Notes under the pieces: model-generated
Seen by the model: the letters and a program-made list of their open reading frames with translations, nothing else
What the model was told of the DNA's origin: nothing
Database searches by the model: none
Part shown: positions 2,931 through 22,427 of the stretch, piece by piece
Numbering within the stretch: the stretch's first letter is position 1
How the letters are laid out: each line of letters begins with the position of its first letter
Translations under genes and position numbers: made by a program
Assembly (NCBI GenBank): GCA_017889625.1
Contig: JAGGAD010000020.1
Coordinates: forward strand, 1 to 37,809
Direction of reading: 5' to 3'
From: Bacillota bacterium
GTDB lineage: Bacteria; Bacillota; Negativicutes; Sporomusales; CTSoil-080
Length of the DNA: 37,809 bases

Positions 2931-3753
2931 TATAACACTCCCTATTATCAAGCAGTCCCGCCATTTTATAAACTTCAAAAAAATGATGTGTTGGTCCTAC
3001 ACCCATTCCCAACTTAAAGCCATGGCTAATTGCCATCGTAATATAACGCTTCGCTTCACTAACCGCAGCTTCTACACTAAACCCCTTCGCTAAGCCTGCC
3101 GCAATCGCCGCGGAAAAAGTACACCCGGTACCATGAGTATTAATACTATTAATCCGTTTATTACTGAACGCGGTAAACTTTTTACCATCATATAAAATGT
3201 CACAGGCATCACCCGCAAGATGGCCACCTTTAATTAGCACATAGCGTGGCCCAAGTTTTTTCAATTTAACCGCCGCCGCTTCCATTGAGGCTCGGTCATT
3301 AACTTGAAACCCAACAATTTCTGCGGCCTCCGGAAGATTAGGGGTCACTACCCAAGTAAGCGGAAAGAGTCTTTTTATCATCGTTTCAACCGCTTCCTGC
3401 TTTAAAAGACACTTACCATTCTTTGAGGTCATAACCGTATCCAACACCAACCGTTTAACCCCATGCCTGTTTAAGGCCTCAGCCACAGCCTCAACTATGA
3501 CCGTGCTAGACAACATTCCTATTTTTAAAGCATCTACCTTAATATCACTGCACACCGCATCAATCTGGGCAGTAATGATTTCCTGGTCCAGCTCTCTAAT
3601 CTTGGTAACTCCGCAAGTATTCTGAGCCGTTACTGCTGTTATTGCACTCATCCCAAAGACGCCTAACGCAGCAAAAGTCTTCAAATCTGCCTGGATCCCA
3701 GCACCACCACCCGAATCAGATCCAGCAATTGTCAACGCAGTCTTAATATCCAT
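2908..3753 (-). CDS. thiD: hydroxymethylpyrimidine/phosphomethylpyrimidine kinase
   Basis: ThiD phosphorylates 4-amino-5-hydroxymethyl-2-methylpyrimidine twice to give the pyrophosphate used by thiamine phosphate synthase. The 281 residues show the ribokinase-fold N terminus [20 protein letters not shown] and the C-terminal anion-hole/catalytic block [20 protein letters not shown]. The ATG shares one base with the stop codon of the upstream unknown gene (TAATG), and the 3' end overlaps the cheY-like gene by 23 bases, so the three form one operon. A C-terminal tail of about 15 residues extends past the usual end of the family. No other thiamine gene is nearby, so salvage of the pyrimidine moiety is a reasonable role. 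Confidence 0.95.
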
Positions 3754-8414: not shown

Positions 8415-8678
8415 AATACCATATTTGACTAAATGCAATGCGCGGGACAAGTACGCCAGTTTTGTTTTTTAGAGAGCCGGGGGATGGTGCAACCCAGCAT
8501 ACAAACTGACCGAAATACACCCGCAAGCAACAGGCTGAAAAAGATAGTAGGCCCCAGTCGGCAGCCACCGTTAACGGCTTGAAGGTTTATTGGCCTTCGT
8601 TAAAGCGGCATTTGTACTGGCAACAAGGGTGGTACCGCGGGTGTATAACTCGTCCCTCATTAGAGGGATGGGTTTTTT
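8415..8678 (+). ncRNA. T-box leader, specifier TAC (Tyr)
   Basis: This is a cis-acting tRNA-responsive leader. The T-box sequence AAGGGTGGTACCGCGG is at 8625-8640 and the intrinsic terminator is a 10-bp stem (8649-8658 with 8663-8672) followed by six T residues. Stem I can be drawn with GCGGG (8442-8446) pairing CCCGC (8520-8524), and AGTTTTGT with ACAAACT above it. The specifier loop between them contains TAC (8516-8518), a tyrosine codon, matching tyrS downstream. By family knowledge uncharged tRNA-Tyr binds and stabilises the antiterminator so that tyrS is transcribed. Confidence 0.93.
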
Positions 8679-8722
8679 ATTTTATTAAAATACTTTCACT
8701 AGTCATTAAGGAGGCTGTTATT

Positions 8723-9940
8723 ATGTCCGTTTTTGATGTATTACAAGAGCGCGGCTTTATCCAACAACTAACTCATGAAGATGAAATTCGCGAATTGCTT
8801 GCTAAAGAAAAAATTACCTTCTATATCGGTTTTGATCCAACCGCAGATAGTCTGCATGTTGGCCATTTTCTGGGAATGATGGTCATGGCTCATATGCAGC
8901 AGCATGGTCATCGCCCCATCTGTCTTATTGGCGGCGGTACCGCAATGGTCGGTGACCCCTCGGGAAAAACCGACATGCGCAAAATGATGACACGGGAAAC
9001 CATCAACCATAACGGTGATCGCTTTAAACTTCAAATGCAACGGTTTATTGATTTCTCAGATGACAAAGCCCTAATGATGAATAACGCCGACTGGCTGTTA
9101 GAACTTAATTATGTCGAATTTCTTCGTGATGTAGGCGCTCACTTCTCAGTAAACCGAATGCTTACCGCCGAATGCTTTAAACAACGCTTGGAAAAAGGCC
9201 TATCTTTCTTAGAATTCAACTACATGCTAATGCAATCATACGACTTTCTTGAACTAAATCGCCGCGTTAACTGCACAATGCAAATGGGTGGCGATGACCA
9301 ATGGTCCAATATTATCCAAGGCGTTGACCTTATTCGCCGCAAAGACAGCAAACCGGCTTATGGCCTTACTTTTACCCTATTGACTACCAGCGATGGCCGC
9401 AAAATGGGCAAGACTGAAAAGGGTGCCCTTTGGCTCGACCCGGAAAAAACTTCACCTTATGAATTCTACCAGTACTGGCGAAATATCGATGACGCCGACG
9501 TAGAAAAATGCCTAGCTCTCTTAACTTTCCTGCCCATGGATGAAGTACGACGCCTAGGCGCGCTACAAGATAAAGAAATCAATACCGCCAAACAAGTCCT
9601 GGCTTTTGAAATTACTAAAATAGTCCACGGCGTTGAAGAAGCGGAAAAAGCCCAGCAGGCAGCGCAAGCCCTCTTCGGCGGAACCGGCGCGCTTGAAAAT
9701 GCCCCAACTACTACTATTAGTGCGGCAGATGCTTCCAGCAAACTTATTGACCTATTAGCGACCAATGCCATCTTCGCCTCCAAAAGCGAAGGGCGTCGTC
9801 TTATCGCCCAAGGCGGTCTCTACCTTGGCGACACCAAAATTACTGATCCTGACTTTACGCTTAGCACCAACTTATTTACCAACGGCAGTCTCTTAGTCCG
9901 CAAAGGCAAAAAAACATATCATCGCTTAGTTATCGAATAA
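8723..9940 (+). CDS. tyrS: tyrosyl-tRNA synthetase
   Basis: This class I aminoacyl-tRNA synthetase charges tRNA-Tyr. The 405 residues contain the HIGH signature as HVGH (residues 45-48), the KMSKS loop as KMGKT (227-231), the tyrosine-pocket region [11 protein letters not shown], and a C-terminal S4 RNA-binding domain (about 335-405, [15 protein letters not shown]). The start is the ATG behind AAGGAGG; the open frame extends upstream into the T-box terminator and that part is not coding. It is regulated by the T-box and ends at a strong hairpin immediately after the stop. Confidence 0.97.
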
Positions 9941-11353: not shown

Positions 11354-11382
11354 TTGACATTAAAAATATTTTATGCTACTAT
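11354..11382 (+). promoter_or_regulatory. promoter of the small orphan gene
   Basis: Perfect TTGACA (11354-11359), 17 bases, TACTAT (11377-11382). It implies a 5' leader of about 165 bases before the start codon at 11554. Confidence 0.75.
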
Positions 11383-11389
11383 TACGAAG

Positions 11390-11553
11390 ATTATTTCCTG
11401 ATACCCTTAGTTGAATATACTGTATTATAGAGCATGATGCTGGCTCTGAATTCTAATTCTGACTCAGTATTGGTAATAGTCGAATGGTAATTCGCGGCTG
11501 ATGACGCAGCCCTGCGTCAAAAATTACCGATAATTGGGAACGGAGGGGAAAGT
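11390..11553 (+). ncRNA. structured 5' leader of unknown class
   Basis: The leader can form a small hairpin AGCAT-G-ATGCT and, near its 3' end, an outer helix GGTAATT (11486-11492) with AATTACC (11522-11528). Inside that helix two stems compete for the same bases: GGCTG (11496-11500) with CAGCC (11507-11511), and GACGCAG (11503-11509) with CTGCGTC (11512-11518). The outer helix ends about 12 bases before the ribosome binding site GGAGGGG. I do not recognise a known riboswitch family. Confidence 0.5.
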
Positions 11554-11754
11554 ATGAAACATCGCATCCAGCAATTATTGAAACGCCTTACTCTTTTAGG
11601 ATATTGCTCGTTTGAAATTAATTCAATTCTTCAAGAAGCAATTGGCCCACAAGAGTTTGACTCTGGCAACGATCTACACTGCGCCAATGCCATCGCTGTA
11701 TTAGAGAAATATGAGCGGCTCGGCGCGCACTTTGTTAATTGTTATAGCAAGTAA
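11554..11754 (+). CDS. small protein of unknown function (66 aa)
   Basis: The product begins MKHRIQQLLKRLTLLGY and is probably helical, with a basic amphipathic N terminus, three cysteines (C18, C43, C64) and no signal peptide. I do not recognise it. Support for a real gene is strong: a consensus promoter, a GGAGGGG ribosome binding site at good spacing, and an intrinsic terminator 12 bases after the stop. The long leader suggests post-transcriptional control. The spacing of hydrophobic residues would fit a small helical bundle or DNA/RNA-binding protein, but this is a guess. Confidence 0.75.
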   Translation: MKHRIQQLLKRLTLLGYCSFEINSILQEAIGPQEFDSGNDLHCANAIAVLEKYERLGAHFVNCYSK

Positions 11755-11765
11755 ATAGTTATCCC

Positions 11766-11806
11766 AAAAGTACAACCGCCGATATATTCGGAAGTTGTAC
11801 TTTTTT
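11766..11806 (+). terminator. terminator of the small orphan gene
   Basis: AAAAGTACAAC (11766-11776) pairs with GTTGTACTTTT (11794-11804), with a T run at the end and an inner CCG/CGG pair. Confidence 0.85.
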
Positions 11807-11878
11807 ATGAAAAACGACATAGTATTCATAATACATGGACAAAAGTATAAAAATTTTAGTATTTTTTCTTAAAAGCTA

Positions 11879-15117: not shown

Positions 15118-15171
15118 AAGTTGAACACCTAAGGAAAAAGTCCATAGGTGACTTTTCCTCATATGGTAGAA
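15118..15171 (+). repeat. left inverted repeat of the IS, split by a 33-bp hairpin segment
   Basis: The blocks AAGTTGAACAC and TATGGTAGAA that are contiguous at the right end are separated here by 15129-15161. The segment and its edge can form CACCTA/TAGGTG or, alternatively, AGGAAAAAGTC/GACTTTTCCT (one bulged A). Confidence 0.75.
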
Positions 15172-15213
15172 TGGAGTTTCCACACAACCATCACCAATGA
15201 GGAGGCAATCACT

Positions 15214-16269
15214 ATGGACTGCTATGATTATATCACAGTAGAACCTGAACGCAAACGCGGTCAGCACTTAGGACAAGAAGATCGCGGGGTAATTCAGCAA
15301 TTAAACAAACAAGGATACTCTCTCAGAGCGATTGCCAAAGAAATCAACTGCTCGCCAAGCACCGTTATGAATGAATTGCGCCGTGGTACGCCACCTCGTA
15401 AAAGCCACCGGGGGCGTCGACCTGAATATAGCGCCAAACGAGGAAGGGTAGTTTATGAAGTCAATCGAACGCGATGCAGAAGATACCATCGGATTGCTCA
15501 TTGTTTTGACTTCATTCGATGGGTAGTAAAGCAAGTCCGTGAACACCGCTGGTCGTTAGATGCTTGCGTAGGTTACGCCAGGTTGCACAGTCTGTTCGAT
15601 CAAAGTGCGATGGTGTGCACGAAAACCCTCTATAATGAGTTGGAGGCCAAAAATCTGCCATTATCCCTTTTTGAACTGCCGGAGGTCCTCAAACGCAAGC
15701 GCCACAAAGGAAAGAGCCGAGTTCATAAACGGCCAAAGGGCAACAGCATTGACGAGCGGCCCGATATCGTGGATGACCGCACAGAGCTTGGACATTGGGA
15801 AGCCGACACGGTGGTCGGACGTCGCAACGGTAAGGAAGCTGTTATCCTGACGTTGGTTGAGCGTGTCACCACCAACTACCTTGCCATTCGTATTCCCGGT
15901 AAAACTAGCGAGGCCGTCATCGACGCCATGAACGTTTTGTACGCTGAGTACGGCGAACGGTTCAGCAAGGTATTCAAGACCATTACGACCGACAATGGTT
16001 TTGAATTTGAGGATTTTGCACAGCTCCTTAAATGAGGCACGAACGTCTACTTCTCTCATCCGTACTCGTCTTGGGAGCGTCCTGTGAATGAAAGGCACAA
16101 TGGCCTCTTACGCCAGTATATTCCTAAAGGCGTTTCCATCGAGCAGTATGCACCAGCAGATGTGTTGGGCTTTGCCGATGAACTGAATGACCGTCCACGC
16201 AGACGTCTTGGCTATCGGACTCCAGCCGAACTTTTCGACGCTTTCCTTGACGACGTTTATTCTGCGTGA
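15214..16269 (+). pseudogene. IS30-family transposase, interrupted by TGA
   Basis: The 352-codon frame has an N-terminal helix-turn-helix (YSLRAIAKEINCSPSTVMNEL) and the DDE catalytic domain: first Asp in GHWEADTVVG, second in TTDNGFEF, and Glu in NERHNG. A TGA at 16033-16035 stands between DFAQLLK and GTNVYFSHPYSSWER, where IS30 proteins usually have Trp (a TGG-to-TGA change). The truncated 273-residue product lacks the catalytic Glu. The frame is otherwise open to 16269, so the lesion looks recent. The start follows TGAGGAGG. Confidence 0.9.
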
Positions 16270-21058: not shown

Positions 21059-21134
21059 TGGCAGGGGCAGAAGGACTTGAACCCTCAACCAACGGTTTTG
21101 GAGACCGCTACTCTACCAATTGAGCTATACCCCT
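21059..21134 (-). tRNA. tRNA-Trp (CCA), copy 1
   Basis: Complete cloverleaf: acceptor AGGGGTA/TGCCCCT, anticodon loop CTCCAAA (CCA), T arm GAGGGTTCAAGTCCTTC, encoded CCA. It differs from copy 2 only by a compensated base pair in the anticodon stem (C-G here, T-A there). It is transcribed alone between its own promoter and terminator. Confidence 0.97.
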
Positions 21135-21156
21135 ATATTATTATTTTTCCATAGTT

Positions 21157-21186
21157 ATTATACCATAACTTCCAGGTGAATGTCCA
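21157..21186 (-). promoter_or_regulatory. promoter of tRNA-Trp copy 1
   Basis: On the minus strand TGGACA (21181-21186), 18 bases, TATAAT (21157-21162) with TGG in front, 22 bases before the tRNA. Confidence 0.75.
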
Positions 21187-21253
21187 AAAAAATATTATGT
21201 CAATTAGTTTTTCATTTTTCCCCGATTTTCAATTATCATTTACTCGTTATAAT

Positions 21254-21979
21254 TTATCTTTTACCATTAATTTCTGTACTTTTTCTCGTAATTTTTTCGA
21301 TAATATTGTTGGCCATTATCGCCAATAATGAGGCAATTGCACCAATTATAATATAGAGTTTAAACGGGGCAGCTTGGCTAATAGTACTTTGTTCAAAGTT
21401 CGGGGTTATGGCGTAAAAAATAATCACGATAATAGTTACAGTTACAGCAAATTCATCCGACGTACTCCCTTTTCTTTTCCCAAGTATACCAATATAATTA
21501 TCACTTTCTCTAGTTTTGAAATCTGCAACATTATTTGATCCTACATTAGTTTGATCAGCAACTTTTTCTATATACTGCCCCAAATTATTAGCTGGTATAT
21601 CATTTTTATTTCCAATAGTAACTAACTTTTCCCCAGAATATATTTCCCGTAGATTTGTTAAGATGTTTTCTTTTTTATCGATATCTAACAAAGGGCTTCC
21701 AATAACTTCCGTCACTAGGTCATCTATGATCTCTCCTACCCTAATATTTAATTTGGTTTCATTAATTTTAGAATTAATAACTGACTGAATTTCAAAAGTA
21801 GTTAAAGTTTTGCTTTCACCAAGTTTGCATAGTAAAATGCAAACTATTGATCGCCTAATTTTTAAATATTTGCTTTCATTATTTAATTTATTAAAAAACA
21901 AAGCCAACGGAATACTAAGAATGGAGGCGACAATTCCTAGCCCCTCAAAAGAAAATACTTGGCTAAAAAAGTCGGCCAT
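21254..21979 (-). CDS. membrane protein of unknown function
   Basis: A 241-residue protein with one N-terminal hydrophobic segment (residues about 13-30, LGIVASILSIPLALFF) and two near the C terminus (about 178-196 and 206-225). Between them lies a soluble domain of about 140 residues, rich in Asn, Lys, Glu and Ile, whose first half (KTLTTFEIQSVINSKINE) has helix-turn-helix-like hydrophobic spacing. I do not recognise the family. The gene looks more AT-rich than its metabolic neighbours, uses many AT-ending codons and sits alone between two tRNA-Trp copies, which suggests acquisition by transfer. GGGAGTG lies 6 bases before the ATG. Confidence 0.8.
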   Translation of the reverse strand: MADFFSQVFSFEGLGIVASILSIPLALFFNKLNNESKYLKIRRSIVCILLCKLGESKTLTTFEIQSVINSKINETKLNIRVGEIIDDLVTEVIGSPLLDIDKKENILTNLREIYSGEKLVTIGNKNDIPANNLGQYIEKVADQTNVGSNNVADFKTRESDNYIGILGKRKGSTSDEFAVTVTIIVIIFYAITPNFEQSTISQAAPFKLYIIIGAIASLLAIMANNIIEKITRKSTEINGKR

Positions 21980-22145
21980 ACGTTCACTCCCTACTTTAGT
22001 ACTGTTAGCATAACATCCACCTAAAAACTTCTTTTATTCTTCATAATTATACGTATTAAATTTTAGAGTATACCTCAATTTCTATCAGTCGACGTGCCTG
22101 TCCCATCTTATTGTCGATGAATTTATAACGTTCTTATTCTTATAC

Positions 22146-22187
22146 AAAACAAAGGAATCTCTCATACACGAGAGATTCCTTTGTTTT
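22146..22187 (-). terminator. terminator of the Asp-Gly-Trp tRNA cluster
   Basis: AAAACAAAGGAATCTCTC (22146-22163) is perfectly complementary to 22170-22187 with a 6-base loop. On the minus strand the stem ends in a run of T and begins one base after the CCA end. Confidence 0.85.
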
Positions 22188-22188
22188 C

Positions 22189-22264
22189 TGGCAGGGGCAG
22201 AAGGACTTGAACCCTCAACCAATGGTTTTGGAGACCACTACTCTACCAATTGAGCTATACCCCT
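22189..22264 (-). tRNA. tRNA-Trp (CCA), copy 2
   Basis: Complete cloverleaf identical to copy 1 except for a T-A pair in the anticodon stem. Last gene of a three-tRNA cluster. Confidence 0.97.
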
Positions 22265-22271
22265 ATAAACT

Positions 22272-22346
22272 TGGAGCGGAAGACGAGATTCGAACTCGCG
22301 ACCCTCGCCTTGGCAAGGCGATGCTCTACCACTGAGCTACTTCCGC
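22272..22346 (-). tRNA. tRNA-Gly (GCC), copy 2
   Basis: Same sequence as the tRNA-Gly at 2135-2209, including encoded CCA; anticodon loop TTGCCAA. Confidence 0.97.
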
Positions 22347-22350
22347 AAAC

Positions 22351-22427
22351 TGGCGACCCCGAACGGATTTGAACCGTCGATCTCCGCCGTGACAGGGCGG
22401 CATGTTAGACCGCTACACCACGGGGCC
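22351..22427 (-). tRNA. tRNA-Asp (GTC), copy 2
   Basis: Same as the tRNA-Asp at 2302-2378 except for one base in the D arm (cgctac instead of cactac on the plus strand). First gene of the cluster. A weak promoter (TTGCTA, 17, TAACAT on the minus strand near 22444-22470) may drive it. Confidence 0.97.

Follow-up and report, generated by a model that had tools for sequence, protein, structure and literature searches.

The leader of the YSK small-protein gene is a conserved RNA, probably with two mutually exclusive folds, and a candidate switch of translation

The window, the whole stretch of 37,809 nucleotides of Bacillota DNA that was analysed, carries a gene for a 66-residue protein of the YSK family behind a leader of about 165 nt. 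Comparison of homologous leaders gives good support for a conserved structured RNA with two mutually exclusive folds, and we consider it probable that this RNA acts in cis to switch translation of the small-protein gene. Four strands, defined across homologues, make up the two folds: a (GATTATTnnCCA), b (TTGGTAATAGTC), c (GGTAAT) and d (ATTACCAA). State A consists of helices a.b and c.d, and state B of helix b.d; the two are mutually exclusive because b and d have two partners each. The features in the window are the following.

11354-11382, + strand: promoter, TTGACA (11354-11359), 17-nt spacer and TACTAT (11377-11382), from a consensus scan
11389-11398, + strand: strand a, GATTATTTCC, at the predicted transcript 5′ end; partner of b in state A
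11457-11461, + strand: putative anti-Shine–Dalgarno strand, TTCTG in the window and a UCUCU/CUUC tract in homologues; pairs with the Shine–Dalgarno region in imposed state B
11470-11481, + strand: strand b, first GGTAAT copy, TTGGTAATAGTC; conserved block contested by a and d, covarying with both
11486-11492, + strand: strand c, GGTAATT, containing the second GGTAAT copy; partner of d in state A
11494-11501, + strand: conserved core GCGGCTGA, unpaired in state A
11503-11518, + strand: hairpin P3, GACGCAG/CTGCGTC (11503-11509 with 11512-11518), with covariation
11522-11531, + strand: strand d, AATTACCGAT; partner of c in state A and of b in state B
11542-11546, + strand: Shine–Dalgarno sequence GGAGG, from sequence and its position ahead of the ATG at 11554; conserved among homologues
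11554-11754, + strand: gene of the 66-residue YSK-family protein, from open reading frame, alignment and three predicted helices
11767-11807, + strand: inverted repeat followed by a T run (AAAGTACAAC...GTTGTACTTTTTT), a probable terminator read from the sequence

The consensus promoter and the leader of about 165 nt put forward in an earlier, sequence-only reading of this DNA are both borne out, with the predicted transcription start at 11388/11389. In most homologues the −35 TTGAC and the −10 box lie at a constant distance from the conserved AGATTATT start. Judging from the probable terminator downstream, the YSK gene is probably its own transcription unit.

A covariance model of the leader core (R1) was searched in 380 genomes of the class, which we take to be the Negativicutes, at a threshold of E < 1e-5. 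It gave 35 matches in 34 of the genomes, from 15 family-level groups, and the leader is conserved over these groups though the proteins are mostly only 38–55% identical to that of the window. All 35 strong matches lie directly upstream of a YSK gene and end within about 40 nt, one overlong match extending into the gene start. Among 299 genomes of the phylum, R1 matched only the genome of the window itself. In families f34 and f35 the YSK protein is present and the R1 leader was not found; f35 (L069, L071-L075) has another conserved leader, GTATGTGGTAATAACCCAACCAC...GTTGGTTTTAACCCAAATCGCTG, some 150 nt ahead of its YSK gene, which stands between pth and a NUDIX-like gene, with a decarboxylase gene and tmk following. 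One genome (G003) carries two divergent YSK genes side by side (L052, 3131-3300 on the − strand and 3502-3637 on the + strand), one with a standard leader and the other with a diverged one in which GGTAAT/ATTACC has seemingly become GGCG/CGCC.

The leaders of homologues share one order of elements. Directly after the promoter come, in turn, a AGATTATTnnCCA start, a variable 5′ domain with a pyrimidine tract, TTGGTAATAGTC-GAA-GGTAATT-GCGGCTGA and a hairpin whose sequence varies; ATTACCAA then precedes the ribosome binding site. Common to the 15 family-level groups is a leader of about 165 nt with TTGGTAATAGTCGAAGGTAATTGCGGCTGA, a hairpin, ATTACCAA and the ribosome binding site. At the 5′ end of the transcript, strand a follows the pattern GATTATTnnCC, with GGTAAT copy 1 as its partner. 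Within the core GCGGCTGA, GCTG is invariant in 31 leaders and the remainder is conserved at 90% or more, or nearly so; we take the core as the likely site at which a trigger of the switch would bind.

The sequence-only reading had proposed that GGCTG/CAGCC and GACGCAG/CTGCGTC compete for shared bases inside an outer GGTAATT/AATTACC helix. The outer helix holds (11486-11492 with 11522-11528, our c.d). The competing pair does not: the CAGCC partner occurs only in the window sequence, GGCTG is nearly invariant in the alignment, and this stem fails the covariation check that GACGCAG/CTGCGTC passes. The latter is P3, a constant hairpin that is compatible with both states (and is missing in L034, L036 and L037). 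Two features had been overlooked, namely the upstream GGTAAT copy at 11470-11481, which is able to take the same AATTACC strand, and the pairing of the transcript 5′ end GATTATTTCC with it. The idea of a two-state switch acting on translation survives in part: it draws support from covariation, from partner swaps and from the calculated masking of the ribosome binding site, and the competing pair named for it was wrong.

Folded alone, the window leader is unremarkable (z = −1.31; 20 of 200 shuffles fold equally well), so that the case rests on comparison. We counted two-sided (compensatory) changes in 31 distinct leaders and set them against shuffles. For state A with P3, 94.7% of the cells are paired, with 57 two-sided cells compared with 18.3 in shuffles; for state B the figures are 93.3%, 58 and 19.1. 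None of 500 shuffles reaches the observed count in either case, and slid controls for state A are at most 58.6% paired. Covariation is observed in P3, a.b and b.d. All six counted pairs of P3 show two-sided changes. Helix a.b has 93.6% of its cells paired over the 31 homologues and two-sided changes in three of ten pairs, which come from few lineages (L021, L051, L018 and L082, plus the uncertainly aligned L058) and hence represent few independent events. Helix b.d has 93.5% paired cells, with seven two-sided cells at its outermost pair. Helix c.d, at 98.7%, is mostly invariant and shows one two-sided change, GATAAT with ATTATC in L021. The changes in b fall at different positions, on the AGTC side for a and in the upstream flank for d. 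The leader is thus a conserved, structured 5′ RNA supported by covariation, as is generally expected of a riboswitch.

Since kinship can inflate covariation counts, we also used a partner-swap test, in which each strand is confronted with its own partner and with the strands of other families (18 groups, family f2 being counted twice and the families not being fully independent). The own partner was better for a and b in 15 of the 18 groups (p = 0.004), or in 14 of 16 (p = 0.001) if f12 and f6 are left out, and for b and d likewise in 15 of 18 (p = 0.001). These results bear on the simplest alternative, a single static structure, in which either b.d or a.b with c.d would be real and the other a by-product of the repeated GGUAAU. 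It would account for the choice of b.d alone by RNAalifold, for the few independent changes in a.b and for the near-invariance of c, which leaves c.d with little covariation of its own. Against it, a.b and b.d both win their swap tests, both have two-sided changes, and the changes linked to a and to d occupy different positions of b; we judge a static structure quite improbable. Some lineages have lost the competition between the helices: in two f21 leaders and in the f12 leaders, the latter devoid of the GCGGCUGA core and of strand a, c has a 3′ strand of its own and b.d is still kept with a separate partner. As far as can be read from these sequences, the retention of both helices where competition is gone argues that both are needed.

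We infer an effect on translation from what state B would do to the ribosome binding site. When state B is imposed, its helix extends outward, and the Shine–Dalgarno sequence becomes paired with the pyrimidine tract, which reads TTCTG in the window and UCUCU or CUUC in homologues. The calculated mean occupancy of this sequence is 0.82 in state B compared with 0.22 in state A, and it exceeds 0.5 in 30 of 31 homologues in state B compared with two of 31 in state A, where the calculated partner of the pyrimidine tract is mostly a purine tract further upstream. Shuffling the 5′ domain as a control still gives 0.51–0.68, and the occlusion is therefore partly unspecific; in the swap test, the extension on the Shine–Dalgarno side does better with its own partner in 13 of 18 groups (p = 0.059), which is marginal at the family level. 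An RNA thermometer would also place the Shine–Dalgarno sequence in a helix adjoining the start codon, as state B does, and would expose it on warming; the calculated accessibility stays level between 20 and 55 °C (mean 0.24–0.29), which makes this reading very improbable. Attenuation through a leader peptide is scarcely credible: the leaders of the window and of L110 do contain a reading frame started by ATG, yet an upstream frame of at least five codons preceded by a Shine–Dalgarno sequence is found in only four of the 31 leaders, at differing places and with unrelated peptide sequences.

The order of folding was calculated on the growing transcript. Helix a.b is predicted (p > 0.5) in 29 of 31 leaders right after b is made, in 16 before d and in three at full length; in the window its probability falls from 0.80 to 0.69 and then to 0.00. 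State A of the window leader is calculated to be 8.9 kcal/mol less stable than state B and would therefore need kinetic trapping or a bound trigger. The calculations thus have state A forming first and giving way to state B at equilibrium, unless state A is stabilised in some way.

Our preferred reading, the translational switch, would work as follows. During synthesis, the 5′ end of the transcript (a) would pair first with GGUAAU copy 1 (b). In state A, presumably the ON state, the newly made d would pair with c, so that a.b stays in place and the ribosome binding site remains accessible. In state B (OFF), d would displace a and pair with b, and the b.d helix would continue into the pairing of the pyrimidine tract with the Shine–Dalgarno sequence, closing the gene. 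A trigger, if our model is right in assuming one, would probably bind the conserved GGUAAU-GCGGCUGA core beside these strands and hold one of the states. Against this reading stand the few lineages behind the changes in a.b, the unspecific share of the occlusion, the calculated preference of the window leader for state B, and the families that have the YSK protein behind no such leader (f34, f35) or that lack the GCGGCUGA core and strand a (f12).

The gene under this putative control was confirmed as an open reading frame of 66 residues at 11554-11754. It had been taken for an orphan; relatives occur in 30 of 41 close genomes and, paralogues included, in 70 of the 380 genomes of the class, the nearest being in a soil Bacillota metagenome-assembled genome. 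A 29-member alignment shows invariant L, GY, L, Y and L together with the terminal YSK. The AlphaFold2 model (mean pLDDT 83.7) has helices at residues 2–15, 19–30 and 40–64. The protein had no match in Pfam or NCBIfam, nothing convincing in PHROGs, none at E ≤ 0.001 with Foldseek on the predicted structure and nothing below E 0.03 in a sequence search of the PDB; the best VIA-align hit (4nso chain B, Z 6.8, rmsd 2.7, 63 aligned) is in the chance range for helical bundles. Plasmid records gave no match, and no neighbouring gene is conserved as a partner across families.

Shorter-tailed paralogues (LKxQLLxLGYxxxQIDxII..., without YSK) are common, and the genome of the window has one of them (L090, G000:C52:28540-28689). 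Those in L098, L099, L100, L102, L103, L105, L109, L092 and L104 adjoin genes of exopolysaccharide clusters, whose products we read from sequence as presumably CpsB phosphatase-like, Wza export-like and Wzz chain-length-like. Some paralogues, drawn from this and other classes of the phylum, stand directly behind riboswitches identified by Rfam matches.

L093:1897-1983; L103:2295-2383 (− strand); L106:2282-2370 (− strand): c-di-GMP-I
L096:1911-1994; L149:1286-1369: c-di-GMP-II
L143:1684-1770 (− strand); L144:1686-1773 (− strand); L147:1693-1779 (− strand): c-di-GMP-II-GAG

This unnamed small-protein family therefore seems to be part of the c-di-GMP regulon. Families f34 and f35, which keep the YSK protein, have almost no GGDEF proteins (0–1) and no c-di-GMP-I riboswitch, compared with 9–49 GGDEF proteins in lineages with the leader. 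This contrast is confounded with ancestry and genome size; it also suggests that the YSK protein itself does not need c-di-GMP.

Two versions of the trigger fit within the switch explanation, and as a guess we rank the product of the gene itself first and a small molecule second. The exclusive link of the leader to one gene favours either autogenous control or a narrow riboswitch. In autogenous control, which we put forward tentatively, the YSK protein would bind its own leader at the GGUAAU-GCGGCUGA core, holding the closed or the open state. The leader is single-copy per genome and, as in autogenous systems, restricted to the gene of the protein that would do the regulating; this gene probably forms its own transcription unit, and its product is small with a basic first helix. 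Families f34 and f35 nevertheless keep the same invariant protein without the leader, so that the protein must have another role, and no RNA-binding fold was found, although the fold search was uninformative. A small-molecule riboswitch strikes us as somewhat unlikely. Its ligand would most likely be a second messenger because relatives of the protein sit under all three c-di-GMP riboswitch types; the unpaired state of the conserved core and the 9–49 GGDEF proteins in lineages with the leader, compared with 0–1 in f34 and f35, point the same way. However, there is one leader per genome compared with up to 25 c-di-GMP-I riboswitches in the same genomes, no known c-di-GMP aptamer is matched, f12 and f17 are rich in GGDEF proteins without having the canonical leader, and the GGDEF contrast carries the confounding already mentioned. 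More specifically, the leader might belong to a new riboswitch class acting by strand exchange, whose ligand might be a second messenger such as a cyclic dinucleotide, with a GCGGCUGA-bound ligand deciding which strand takes GGUAAU copy 1; we regard this as unlikely.

The leader has no Rfam match at gathering scores, in keeping with the earlier suggestion of a possibly undescribed regulatory RNA. Up to E 10, three leaders gave chance-level and mutually unrelated matches; in the window, the best of these weak matches fall on the hairpin at 11767-11807. The T-box model (RF00230) is matched in the window at 8429-8660 and not at the YSK leader. This T-box precedes a tyrS-like gene (8579-9940) whose mechanically assigned TTG start overlaps it, and the true start is therefore probably an ATG further in. 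Elsewhere, the window contains a transposase-like open reading frame (HTH_38/rve, 15148-16035) and two tRNA clusters (2055-2378 and 21062-22427), which include tRNAs with identical model scores in two places. A literature search of freely available main texts found other Negativicutes motifs and not the YSK leader.

With this leader comes a cis-regulatory RNA family that is apparently undescribed and whose proposed switching layout is well defined. The small-protein family it accompanies is unnamed in Pfam and NCBIfam, and other members of that family are found repeatedly behind c-di-GMP riboswitches and beside exopolysaccharide genes. The trigger of the leader, once found, would assign functions to RNA and protein alike, and would tell whether a c-di-GMP riboswitch was replaced, in one lineage, by a different sensor before the same kind of gene.

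Among the closest known systems are the c-di-GMP-I, c-di-GMP-II and c-di-GMP-II-GAG riboswitches (RF01051, RF01786 and RF03169), which directly precede paralogues of the same small-protein family. The YSK leader nevertheless matches none of their models even at permissive thresholds (up to E 10), whereas the same search finds them before the paralogues. With translational riboswitches that sequester the Shine–Dalgarno sequence, it shares a conserved core predicted to be unpaired, a putative switching helix, a putative anti-Shine–Dalgarno strand and a single downstream gene; here, however, the strand in dispute would be one copy of a duplicated hexamer and would find its other partner at the extreme 5′ terminus of the RNA. 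Like the leaders of ribosomal-protein genes, it occurs before one small-protein gene only, once per genome, although the YSK protein is not a protein of the ribosome and no RNA-binding domain is known in it. By analogy, the layout would work like a translational riboswitch or an autogenous leader, and it is a candidate for either class. The Negativicutes motifs gltD, ldh2, ilvD and potE, described upstream of gltD, Ldh_2, ilvD and potE (PMC8632094), and the SLH motif, mostly found upstream of SLH-domain genes with some examples before genes of unknown function (PMC6429828), are likewise lineage-restricted cis-regulatory candidates, from which the YSK leader seems to be set apart by their described gene context. 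We regard the YSK leader as a cis-regulatory RNA that is restricted to certain lineages, is apparently undescribed and plausibly affects translation.
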